Source: an uncultured Oscillochloris sp. (GTDB lineage Bacteria > Chloroflexota > Chloroflexia > Chloroflexales > Chloroflexaceae). Taken from it: DNA of 39,890 nucleotides. The translations under genes and the position numbers were made by a program. Under the pieces are notes generated by a model. The model saw nothing but the letters and a program-made list of their open reading frames with translations. It searched no databases and had not been told where the DNA came from. The DNA lies in assembly GCA_903916565.1 (NCBI GenBank), contig CAIWXH010000276.1, positions 1 to 39,890 of the forward strand, given 5' to 3'. This document shows, one piece after another, positions 4,357 to 36,091 of the stretch; within the stretch, counting starts at the first letter, position 1; each line of letters starts with the position of its first letter.

Positions 4357-5041
4357 GGCTGTGCTCCTCATGATGTGCGGGCTGCCATAGCCCACACAGT
4401 GCAAATCCCGGATGTCCCTTGTCAGCGTACGCGGCCCAAAGCGCATCGTAACGCGCTTGAGCGTGGCTATAGACGATCTCCCACGCGATCTGGCATGACC
4501 CCGCGCATGCCTCGCCCCGGTCTTGGCCGCGCCAAAGCCAGCCTCGCTGCCAGCAGGCGGCGGCGTCTCACCCCCTCTCGAAAACGGGGCGCAACAAACA
4601 CATGGCACAGCGCACCGGAGCCTACACCGCTGCAATGCTTCGCACTAGGAAGCCACAGCCGTGGAGTTATGCGCCATACACGGATGGACGCAAAAGGGCG
4701 CAGCCAGAGCCTAGCAATGTGCCCCTTGGCGTGCTAGATTGTCTGGTTACGTCAACTTCTGCTGGGTGGGAAGGGATGTTGAAAACGGGAGAGATGCGTA
4801 GCAGGAGAGAGTCGCCTCATTGCGCCCTCCATCATAGTGCGGCGTTAGACAAGGTTTCAGGTGCCAGGCTTCAGGTCTCAGGCCGAACACATCAGCAATG
4901 CCTGTGCGTGCCCAAACTGTAAAGTTTCCGCGAACCTTGTCTTAGTGTATGAACTTTAACCGCTTAGGTGGTGCAATCATAACAGTCGCTCACCCGAGCG
5001 TCAAGAGGGGCGAAGGCTTGGCAGCCACAAGATTTGTTTCA
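4357..5041. other. 685-bp intergenic region between glpF and the dhaR-like gene
   Basis: No convincing gene was found here. Plus-strand frames of 94-120 codons lack ribosome-binding sites and recognisable similarity. The region should hold the glpF-dhaKL-glpK promoter and the regulator's binding sites, but I could not point to a clear -35/-10 pair. A 94-bp dispersed repeat occupies 4848-4941. Confidence 0.6.
4848..4941 (-). repeat. 94-bp dispersed MITE-like repeat, copy 1
   Basis: The element starts GACAAGGTTTCAGG and ends CGCGAACCTTGTC, so its termini are inverted repeats of GACAAGGTT. It is flanked by TTA at 4845-4847 and TTA at 4942-4944, consistent with a 3-bp target-site duplication. 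Taking copy 3 as forward, this copy is inverted: the CTGAAAC heptads are at the left and the CAGTTTGGGCA-like core is at the right. It encodes nothing. Confidence 0.85.
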
Positions 5042-6971: not shown

Positions 6972-7065
6972 GCCAAGGTTTCAGGTGTCGGGTTTCAGGT
7001 TTCAGGCCGAACGCATCAGCAAGCTCTGTGCGTGCCCAAACGGTAAACTATCCACGAACATCGTC
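6972..7065 (-). repeat. 94-bp dispersed MITE-like repeat, copy 2
   Basis: This copy has exactly the same length as copies 1, 3 and 6 but decayed ends: it starts GCCAAGGTTTCAGG and ends GAACATCGTC. The interior, with GTGCGTGCCCAAAC and repeated TTTCAGG heptads, clearly matches copy 1 in the same orientation. Flanks are TAA and TCA, so no target duplication remains. It lies immediately upstream of the dhaR-like gene. Confidence 0.8.
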
Positions 7066-11455: not shown

Positions 11456-11468
11456 ACACGTTTCTTTA

Positions 11469-11562
11469 GACAAGGTTCGCGGTTACTTTACAGTTTGGGC
11501 ATACGCAGGGCGAACTGGTGCGTTCGGGCTGAAACCTGAAACCTGAAACCTGAGACCTTGTC
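11469..11562 (+). repeat. 94-bp dispersed MITE-like repeat, copy 3 (reference copy)
   Basis: This copy is intact. It starts GACAAGGTTCGCGG, has the core TTTACAGTTTGGGCA, then about three and a half CTGAAAC heptads, and ends ACCTTGTC. TTA flanks it on both sides (11466-11468 and 11563-11565). The right-hand TTA is, on the minus strand, the TAA stop codon of the YacL-like gene. It therefore fills the spacer between that gene and dtd. Confidence 0.9.
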
Positions 11563-12660
11563 TTACGACGAACTAGCGACGGACTCTTGGCTCGGTGCCA
11601 ACGTGGCAAAGACGAGACGGCCAGTCTGGGTCTGATGCAGGCGCGTAATCACAACCTCAATGGTCTGGCCAATCAAATGGCGGGCATCCTCAACAATGAC
11701 CGGGGTGCCGTCATCGAGATAGCCAACGCCCTGCTGACGCGCATTGCCCTCGTTACGGATCGTCAGCTTGAGGCGCTGCTCCTGGACAACCAGCGGGCGC
11801 ACGGATTCGCTGAGAATGTTCAGGCTCAGCACCTTAACACCCTGAAGGGCGGCAACCTTGTTCAGATTAAAGTCATTGGTGATGATCGGGCAGCCATACT
11901 CACGCGCCAGGGCCACCAGCTTATCGTCAACCTTGGTAACCCCAGAAACCTCGACACTGACCACCTCGACGGGCAGCGGCGACTGACGCTGCATCTCATT
12001 CAGCAGTTCGAGACCACGGCGCCCCTTGCCACGGCGCAGGTCATCAGCCGAGTCGGCCAATTGCTGCAACTCGGCAAGCACAAAGGCCGGCACGATCAGC
12101 GTGCCATCGAGAAAGCCGGTGCGGGCGACAGCGGCAATGCGCCCATCAATAATCGCACTAGTATCGAGCAGCAGGCGTCTGGGCGGCGGCGGCAGTGCCT
12201 CAGGGTCGGGCAAGCTTTGGGCCGGGGGTGTCCGCTGCAAACCCCTGAGCAACTCGACCATATCGTGGCGGCGCAGCGCAAAGATCGTGCCGCCAATATA
12301 GGCCAAGCAGCCAGCGCCAACGAGGGGCAGGAACTGACCAAACGGGGCGGGCAGGCTTGCCAGCGGCACGGTCAGAAACACAGCAAACACGAGGCCAAGC
12401 ATTGACCCTGCGCCCACAAGCAGCAACTCGGGCAGGGGCACGCTGCGCGAGCGGCGCAGCAGCTCAGCAATGGGGTCAATCGTCACCCGTGGCGTCACCA
12501 GCAGGCCGAGGCCAGCGCCAGCCAAGGCGAGCAACTGAATCGCGAGTTGTTGAAACTCGTCGGGGTGAAAATTCGAGAGGTTGAGACCAACCGACCAGCC
12601 TACATAGGCTAGGACAACCATCCCAACGATCCGTGAGACAAAATTAAGGCTGACGTTCAT
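11563..12660 (-). CDS. YacL-like membrane PIN/TRAM-domain protein
   Basis: The 365-residue protein has about four N-terminal transmembrane segments (about 8-130), then a PIN nuclease-fold domain with acidic residues in LLLDTSAIIDGRI, VLAELQQLAD, KVDDKLVALA and ITNDFNLNKV (about 165-285), and a C-terminal TRAM domain (about 290-350, from NEGNARQQGVGYLDDGTPVIV). This is the architecture of B. subtilis YacL, whose exact substrate I do not know; RNA binding or cleavage is implied by the domains. It is 39 bp downstream of radA, matching the radA-yacL neighbourhood of Firmicutes. Its stop codon coincides with the flank of repeat copy 3. Confidence 0.9.
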   Translation of the reverse strand: MNVSLNFVSRIVGMVVLAYVGWSVGLNLSNFHPDEFQQLAIQLLALAGAGLGLLVTPRVTIDPIAELLRRSRSVPLPELLLVGAGSMLGLVFAVFLTVPLASLPAPFGQFLPLVGAGCLAYIGGTIFALRRHDMVELLRGLQRTPPAQSLPDPEALPPPPRRLLLDTSAIIDGRIAAVARTGFLDGTLIVPAFVLAELQQLADSADDLRRGKGRRGLELLNEMQRQSPLPVEVVSVEVSGVTKVDDKLVALAREYGCPIITNDFNLNKVAALQGVKVLSLNILSESVRPLVVQEQRLKLTIRNEGNARQQGVGYLDDGTPVIVEDARHLIGQTIEVVITRLHQTQTGRLVFATLAPSQESVASSS

Positions 12661-27134: not shown

Positions 27135-27222
27135 GGACAAGAGGACAAGGGGATGGGGCATCGCATACGGTGCCCCATCCCCTTGTCCCCTTGTCCCCTT
27201 GTCCCCTTGTCCCCTTGTCCCG
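27135..27222. repeat. 18-bp hairpin plus TTGTCCCC octamer array
   Basis: Bases 27143-27160 pair perfectly with 27171-27188 around a 10-nt loop. Five TTGTCCCC octamers run from 27183 to 27222, ending 8 bp before the stop codon of the GH99-like gene. In that gene's transcript the order is stop codon, GGGGACAA repeats able to form a G-quadruplex, then the hairpin. The same octamer core occurs after glpK at 233-328. Confidence 0.9.
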
Positions 27223-32337: not shown

Positions 32338-32841
32338 ATGTCCACTCCTCACACACAGATCGAACGAACAACGCACGTCGGTGACAACCGCCTCAAAATC
32401 CTTGAGGCGATGATGAAGCGGCACCAATACCGCGCCGACGCCCTGATCGAGGTTCTCCACAAAGGCCAGGAACTGTACGGTCATCTGTCACCAAGCCTGC
32501 TCACGCTGATCGCCCATAGCCTGCACCTGCCGCCAAGTCGCGTCTACGGTGTCGCTACATTCTACCATTTCTTCTCGCTGGCGCCGCAGGGCGAACACAC
32601 CTGTACGGTCTGTCTCGGCACCGCTTGTTATGTCAAGGGTGCCGCGACGATTTTGGCTGCCCTTGAACGTGAGACAGGGCTACGCGCGGGCACCACCAGC
32701 CCTAATGGTCGCCTCTCGCTGCTGACTACCCGCTGTCTGGGTGCCTGCGGCATCGCCCCCGCCGTGGTGATCGACGGCACCGTTATGGGTCACGCCGACG
32801 ACGACGGGCCGCGTACCAAGCTGCACGAGTTGCTCGATTAG
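32338..32841 (+). CDS. hoxE: Bidirectional [NiFe] hydrogenase subunit HoxE
   Basis: The 167-residue NuoE-like [2Fe-2S] protein belongs to the diaphorase part of group 3d hydrogenase. CTVCLGTACYVKGA and TRCLGACGIAPAVVIDG supply the four cluster cysteines, and RVYGVATFYHFFSL precedes them as in NuoE. AGGA lies about 8 nt upstream of the ATG. The TAG stop (32839-32841) overlaps the first base of repeat copy 4. It is the first gene of hoxEFUYH. Confidence 0.96.
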   Translation: MSTPHTQIERTTHVGDNRLKILEAMMKRHQYRADALIEVLHKGQELYGHLSPSLLTLIAHSLHLPPSRVYGVATFYHFFSLAPQGEHTCTVCLGTACYVKGAATILAALERETGLRAGTTSPNGRLSLLTTRCLGACGIAPAVVIDGTVMGHADDDGPRTKLHELLD

Positions 32842-32917
32842 ACAAGGTTCGCAGATGCGTTCCAGTTTCGGCACTGCGCTCGGCTGAAACCTGAAACCTG
32901 AAACCTGAAACCTTGTC
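32841..32917 (+). repeat. Dispersed MITE-like repeat, copy 4 (77 bp, internal deletion)
   Basis: It starts GACAAGGTTCGCAG and ends GAAACCTTGTC, with four CTGAAAC heptads. About 17 bp of the centre are missing compared with copy 3. The left flank is TTA, of which TA plus the first G of the element forms the hoxE stop codon. On the right, TTA occurs after one extra C. It fills most of the hoxE-hoxF spacer. Confidence 0.85.
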
Positions 32918-35378: not shown

Positions 35379-35387
35379 ACAGGCGCT

Positions 35388-35432
35388 CAGACTAAAACCT
35401 GAAACCCGGCACCTGACACCTGAACCCTTGTC
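35388..35432 (+). repeat. Dispersed MITE-like repeat, copy 5 (right half only)
   Basis: The CTCAGACTAAAACCTGAAAC start, further ACCTGA heptads and the CCCTTGTC end match the right part of copy 3. The left part is not recognisable and is replaced by other repeats. TAAGGA right after the element contributes the hoxY ribosome-binding site. Confidence 0.75.
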
Positions 35433-35445
35433 TAAGGACTCTTGT

Positions 35446-35982
35446 ATGGCTGACAAACTACGTCTGGCAACCGTGTGGCTCGGGGGCTGCTCGGGCTGCC
35501 ATATGTCGCTGCTCGATATGGACGAGTGGCTGATTGACCTCGCCGCCGTCGCTGATCTGGTTTACAGTCCCATCGCCGACCACAAACACTACCCGAAAAA
35601 CGTAGACCTTGTCCTGGTTGAAGGGGCCGTGGCGACCAATGAGCATCTGGAGTTGGCCCGCAAAGTGCGCCAGCGTAGCCGCCTGGTGGTGGCGCTGGGC
35701 GACTGCGCCGTGACCGGCAATGTGACCGCGATGCGTAATCCCCTGGGAGCGGCGGCCACGGTGCTTCAGCAGGTCTATATCACCCACGGCGACCCACGGG
35801 GCGTACTGCCCGACGACCCCGACATCGTGCCGCGCCTGCTCGACACGGTGGTGCCCCTGCACGCCACGATCACGGTGGATCTGTTTCTGCCGGGCTGCCC
35901 GCCCTCGGCCCCCGCCATTCGCGCCCTGATCGAAGCCCTGCTCAAGGGCGAAACGCCGCCGGCGGCAAGCCGCTTTGGATAA
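35446..35982 (+). CDS. hoxY: [NiFe] hydrogenase small subunit HoxY
   Basis: The 178-residue small subunit carries the proximal [4Fe-4S] cluster through GGCSGCHMS (near residue 15), GDCAVTGN and [10 protein letters not shown]. There is no Tat signal, as expected for a cytoplasmic group 3d enzyme. The ATG at 35446 is preceded by AAGGA at about 8 nt; the frame is open upstream to 35293 but that part is only repeat sequence. The TAA stop (35980-35982) overlaps the left flank of repeat copy 6. Confidence 0.96.
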
Positions 35983-35983
35983 A

Positions 35984-36077
35984 GATGAGGTTCGCAGATG
36001 CTTTCTAGTTTTGGCACACGCATAGTTTTCTGATGCGCTCGGCCTGAAACCTGAAACCCGGCACCTGAAACCTTGTC
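35984..36077 (+). repeat. 94-bp dispersed MITE-like repeat, copy 6
   Basis: Again exactly 94 bp. It starts GATGAGGTTCGCAG and ends GAAACCTTGTC, with two clear CTGAAAC heptads. AAA flanks it on both sides (35981-35983 and 36078-36080), and the left flank overlaps the hoxY stop codon. It fills the hoxY-hoxH spacer. Confidence 0.88.
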
Positions 36078-36091
36078 AAAGAGAGCTACTT

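Follow-up and report, generated by a model that had tools for sequence, protein, structure and literature searches.

A 94-bp repeat in the genome of an uncultured Oscillochloris sp. is a MITE that duplicates a 3-bp target on insertion; its copies lie on stop codons more often than expected, and the C-termini of the genes tested are unchanged. In the explanation that we favour, at a probability of about 0.78, the MITE inserts at C-TWA-G with duplication of the TWA, is purged from most other locations, and is nearly neutral where it has landed on a stop codon. This suggests a way in which a mobile repeat could build up hundreds of copies within a compact genome: outside gene interiors its target triplet is often a stop codon, and duplication of that triplet leaves the gene whole. 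The window referred to below is the whole 39,890-nt stretch of DNA that was analysed.

Structure, target and copy number of the repeat

Alignment of the copies revealed inverted ends, GACAAGGTT...AACCTTGTC. A profile made from 24 copies gave 259 matches in 1.23 Mb of the source genome (G000), sampled as 101 stretches, about a fifth of the genome read, on contigs picked for carrying strong copies. Both ends were present in 149 of the 259 matches, and 128 of these 149 were exactly 94 bp long. The flanking triplets were identical in 77 of the full copies (52%), compared with 0-1% in shifted controls, and a 4-bp flank match was found in fewer than 1%; copies lacking an intact duplication were harder to read, one flank being mutated. 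TTA (34) and TAA (24) made up 58 of the 77 matching triplets, with few others, in the context C-TWA-G. Given the inverted ends, the 3-bp duplication of fixed length and the C-TWA-G target, together with its short length, many copies and lack of a coding gene, the repeat is a non-autonomous MITE. MITEAba12 of Acinetobacter, about 113 bp long, has 9-bp duplications, intact in 40% of copies, with no orientation preference found (PMC6382973). It is a MITE of similar kind in that part of its copies retain the duplication, whereas the element described here has a 3-bp duplication and a strong orientation bias.

The right half of the element contains 7-bp CTGAAAC units in variable number (window positions 11529-11556, and correspondingly in other copies), from which length variants, 87 and 101 bp among them, probably arise. 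No Rfam family matched above the gathering score within the window, and the copy alignment showed no meaningful covariation; with one compensatory pair only and no Rfam family, a structured RNA was rejected. In the genus, the genome G001, from a second species, held at least about 150 matches, as does G000; a third genome held four, and other genomes of Chloroflexaceae few or none. No paper describing the repeat family was found in a literature search with little reach into subscription journals.

The MITE would depend for its movement on a DDE-type transposase whose gene lies, or once lay, elsewhere. No autonomous partner with the element's ends was found in the 1.23 Mb of G000, in 0.16 Mb of G001 or at the DDE_Tnp_1 and DDE_Tnp_4 loci. 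A scan of both samples for end pairs, exact or with two mismatches and with a matching duplication, returned a handful: the one read in detail, in L074, consists of two MITE copies around ribosomal protein genes, and the others mostly involve known MITE copies. DDE_Tnp_1 genes are present in the genus, with no examined locus having matching ends and duplication, and DDE_Tnp_1_2 had no match in G000. By analogy, the likeliest source of the transposition machinery appears to be the IS1031 group of the IS5 family, in which a 3-bp duplication is formed at TNA and the ends of one example, ISLrh, begin GA (PMC12016507). In the present element 62 of the 77 intact duplications are TNA and the end reads GACAAGG. 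Its target preference is narrower than that of the group, however, and membership is not claimed because no transposase with these ends was found.

Copies at stop codons

Of the six copies in the window, five are full or nearly so and one is a right-end fragment. Copy 1 (4848-4941, minus strand; full, duplication TAA) and copy 2 (6972-7065, minus strand; full-length with a degenerate end) are not at stop codons. Copy 3 (11469-11562, plus strand) is a full 94-bp element flanked by TTA on both sides (11466-11468 and 11563-11565), the right triplet being, on the minus strand, the TAA stop of a YacL-like gene of 365 aa (11563-12660, minus strand). Copy 4 (32841-32917, plus strand), a 77-bp variant, follows a left flank TTA (32838-32840), and its first G completes the TAG stop (32839-32841, plus strand) of hoxE (32338-32841, plus strand). 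Copy 6 (35984-36077, plus strand), a full element with the duplication AAA/AAA (35981-35983 and 36078-36080), overlaps with its left AAA the last two bases of the TAA stop (35980-35982, plus strand) of hoxY (35446-35982, plus strand). Coordinates thus bear out the contacts of copies 3, 4 and 6 with the YacL-like, hoxE and hoxY stops that the earlier note had described. The three genes were confirmed by homologues. Among named organisms, the closest relatives of the YacL-like protein are in Candidatus Chloroploca and Candidatus Oscillochloris (72% and 70% identical), which places the host near these two taxa in Chloroflexaceae. The remaining copy, the fragment copy 5 (about 35381-35432, plus strand), adjoins the ribosome-binding region of hoxY; its right flank TAAGGA (window 35433-35448) resembles a ribosome-binding site, and many copies adjoin SD-like motifs likewise.

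Three of six copies on a stop codon is weak evidence if taken alone, and the excess is clear genome-wide. Gene ends were obtained from a purpose-written codon-model caller rather than from annotation (955 genes, 83% coding); it recovered the hox and YacL-like genes, calling the hoxE start late. In the 1.23 Mb, 47 of the 149 full copies had a flank that overlapped a called stop codon, among them 21 of the 77 whose duplication is intact. For these 77, the number expected at stops was 6.7 when the same trimers were drawn from non-coding or stop positions, 10.1 when the 5-mer context was matched (p = 5e-4), and 8.2 under a target weight matrix learnt from copies away from stops (p = 4e-5); the excess over the three nulls is approximately 2- to 3-fold, with p no higher than 5e-4. 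The flanking triplet was exactly the stop codon, in register, in 34 of 49 events, and in 13 of 49 the stop began one base in, as in TTA + G. The random-insertion comparison therefore found the genome-wide excess that the earlier note had asked about, and its proposal that the element targets TAA-like trimers, which are often stop codons, is supported.

It is very improbable that the excess reflects chance or an artefact of gene calling. The genes are predicted and the contigs were selected for carrying copies, but restriction to high-scoring genes kept the excess (13 at stops compared with 4.8 expected, p = 9e-4), and the three window genes have confirming homologues. Nor do duplicated regions inflate the counts: the copy flanks contained no segmental duplicates, with three weak one-sided matches.

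Most of the excess is regional: the 60 bp that follow a gene either tolerate insertions or are preferred for them, and any preference for the stop itself is modest at most. Of 38 sites in the 60 bp downstream of a stop, 21 were on the stop, compared with 41% expected, a marginal difference (p = 0.05). A single copy of the 149 is substantially within a called gene, although, going by trimer frequencies, coding sequence should contain about 54 of the 77 sites that have an intact duplication. Divergent spacers, where promoters lie, held 24 of 141 copies compared with 33% of intergenic bases, and convergent spacers 22 of 141 compared with 9%. Since the excess is mostly regional and promoter spacers are avoided, we read it as target choice combined with purging and tolerance at 3' ends, where purging rather than guided targeting would make up most of the excess. 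The genome is 64% GC, and most insertions inside genes or in promoter regions would be purged from it. Survivors would then be confined to the narrow spacers close to gene ends, in which the stop codon itself often provides the TWA, either as TAA in register or as TTA + G, which reads TAG. Duplication of the triplet would leave the gene with its stop and C-terminus, and such insertions would be nearly neutral and persist.

Other short repeats are known at gene ends. BOX of Streptococcus pneumoniae supplies the 3'-end stop codon in 36 cases, with no strong evidence of truncation (PMC3049150). Like the MITE it is a short interspersed mobile repeat found at stop codons without clear truncation; unlike it, BOX has a modular build and carries the stop within its own sequence, whereas for the MITE the stop is usually the native one, in register with the duplicated target triplet. 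REP sequences are short palindromes spread by RAYT enzymes. In Escherichia coli they occur close behind stop codons, and those at a distance of 15 nt or less are reported to stall ribosomes (PMC12306157). They share with the MITE a position close behind stops, but the latter is a 94-bp element with terminal inverted repeats and a 3-bp duplication.

The element fills even the spacers of conserved operons. In a ribosomal-protein cluster (L074:3762-5536), whose genes we take from their proteins to be rplK, rplA, rplJ and rplL, the stop of rplK has one copy and that of rplJ a decayed one.

C-termini of the affected genes

As an alternative to trimer targeting, the earlier note had considered that insertion created new stops and trimmed the proteins. 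In the cases that can be tested this is refuted. Removal of the element left the stop in place at the empty site in 22 of 22 events with an intact duplication. Among 27 copies without one, the reconstructed empty site lacked a stop in three, the sole point in favour of trimming and one drawn from copies for which reconstruction is unreliable. For copy 4, the right TTA is one base further out and we infer an empty site of GATTA + GCAT, which reads GAT TAG CAT and restores the same hoxE TAG.

Comparison with relatives lacking these insertions led to the same result: their YacL-like, HoxE and HoxY proteins end at the same residue or no more than a few away. In G001 the YacL-like protein ends ...AASSS and HoxE ...REWFD, each directly before the stop, as does ...RFG in HoxY of many relatives. 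New stops with trimming of the proteins are thus an extremely improbable explanation. Inspection by eye of the YacL-like and hoxY spacers of G001 (L202 and L242) found element-like sequence in another orientation or position; because of this difference, the insertions look independent of the window copies.

Orientation relative to neighbouring genes

Copies at stops are strongly oriented, a rule that the earlier note missed, as it did the regional retention near gene ends; of its interpretation, the trimer targeting is supported and the new stops are refuted in the testable cases. The element is inverted relative to the gene in 40 events and not in 9, so that the right, CTGAAACC-side end touches the stop; for high-scoring genes the ratio is 26:4. 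Where one end is within 20 bp of a gene, it is the right end only in 66 copies and the left end only in 12 (p = 3e-10), and the right end tends to face the gene at 5' ends too. The bias was found in exploration and its p-values do not come from a pre-planned test; support for it consists of the effect size and the agreement of the G001 sample (20 contigs, 158 kb), with 4:0 at stops. Neutral retention does not predict such a rule, which counts against our favoured explanation.

Three simple causes were rejected. Triplet preference would not explain the bias, TTA and TAA being about equally frequent at copies away from stops, and a GC gradient across the insertion is weak, falling short of significance where the bias is greatest. 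An ATG occurs in the first 30 nt of 45% of copies read from the left end, compared with 2% from the right, but reinitiation there was discarded because the exceptions to the rule carry an ATG as often as other copies.

The orientation could be set at insertion, by machinery that prefers gene boundaries (stops and ribosome-binding sites) and turns the right end to the gene. A parallel is Tn7, which inserts at glmS. The 66:12 bias, already 23:5 in the youngest third of copies, would fit such guidance, as would the ratios at stops of 40:9 and, in G001, 4:0. The same is true of the many 5'-side copies that adjoin an SD-like motif, found in the first 10 bp beyond the element in 19 of 30, a count with no chance expectation for comparison. 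The target flanks look nearly symmetric, however, the stop itself shows a marginal excess within the 60 bp that follow genes, and we know of no machinery that recognises gene boundaries generally, which counts against guided insertion. We consider it doubtful. The broader proposal, that a transposon family inserts at gene boundaries generally, with its right end to the gene, and fills operon spacers harmlessly with hundreds of copies, is rather unlikely.

A possible, if tentative, account is that selection depends on orientation, one reading direction harming the adjacent gene through mRNA cleavage, termination or stray translation and the harmless one surviving. In each of the 10 copies whose left end touches a stop, the right end is at most 19 bp from another gene, which is consistent with such selection, as is the more frequent early ATG on reading from the left. 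There is a precedent in ERIC, which destabilises the upstream operon mRNA in one orientation only (PMC3049150). Against this, the bias is equally strong in young and old copies (23:5 in the young third, 23:1 in the middle and 20:6 in the old), an ATG is present in only 5 of the 10 exceptions, similar to background, and the folding energy is equal on both strands. If set at insertion, the orientation rule would point to machinery that senses gene boundaries; if set by selection, it would suggest that the repeat acts on mRNA in an as yet undescribed way.

Other repeats are present in the window. An 8-bp unit of the GTCCCCTT/GTCCCCAC type forms arrays, in part inverted, at 178-352 and 27135-27219, and the unit read backwards (GGGGACAAG) resembles the element end GACAAGG. 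At the contig end, positions 1-180 are occupied by a 25-bp tandem repeat, CTGACCGGGCCGCTTGCTTCGCTCG.
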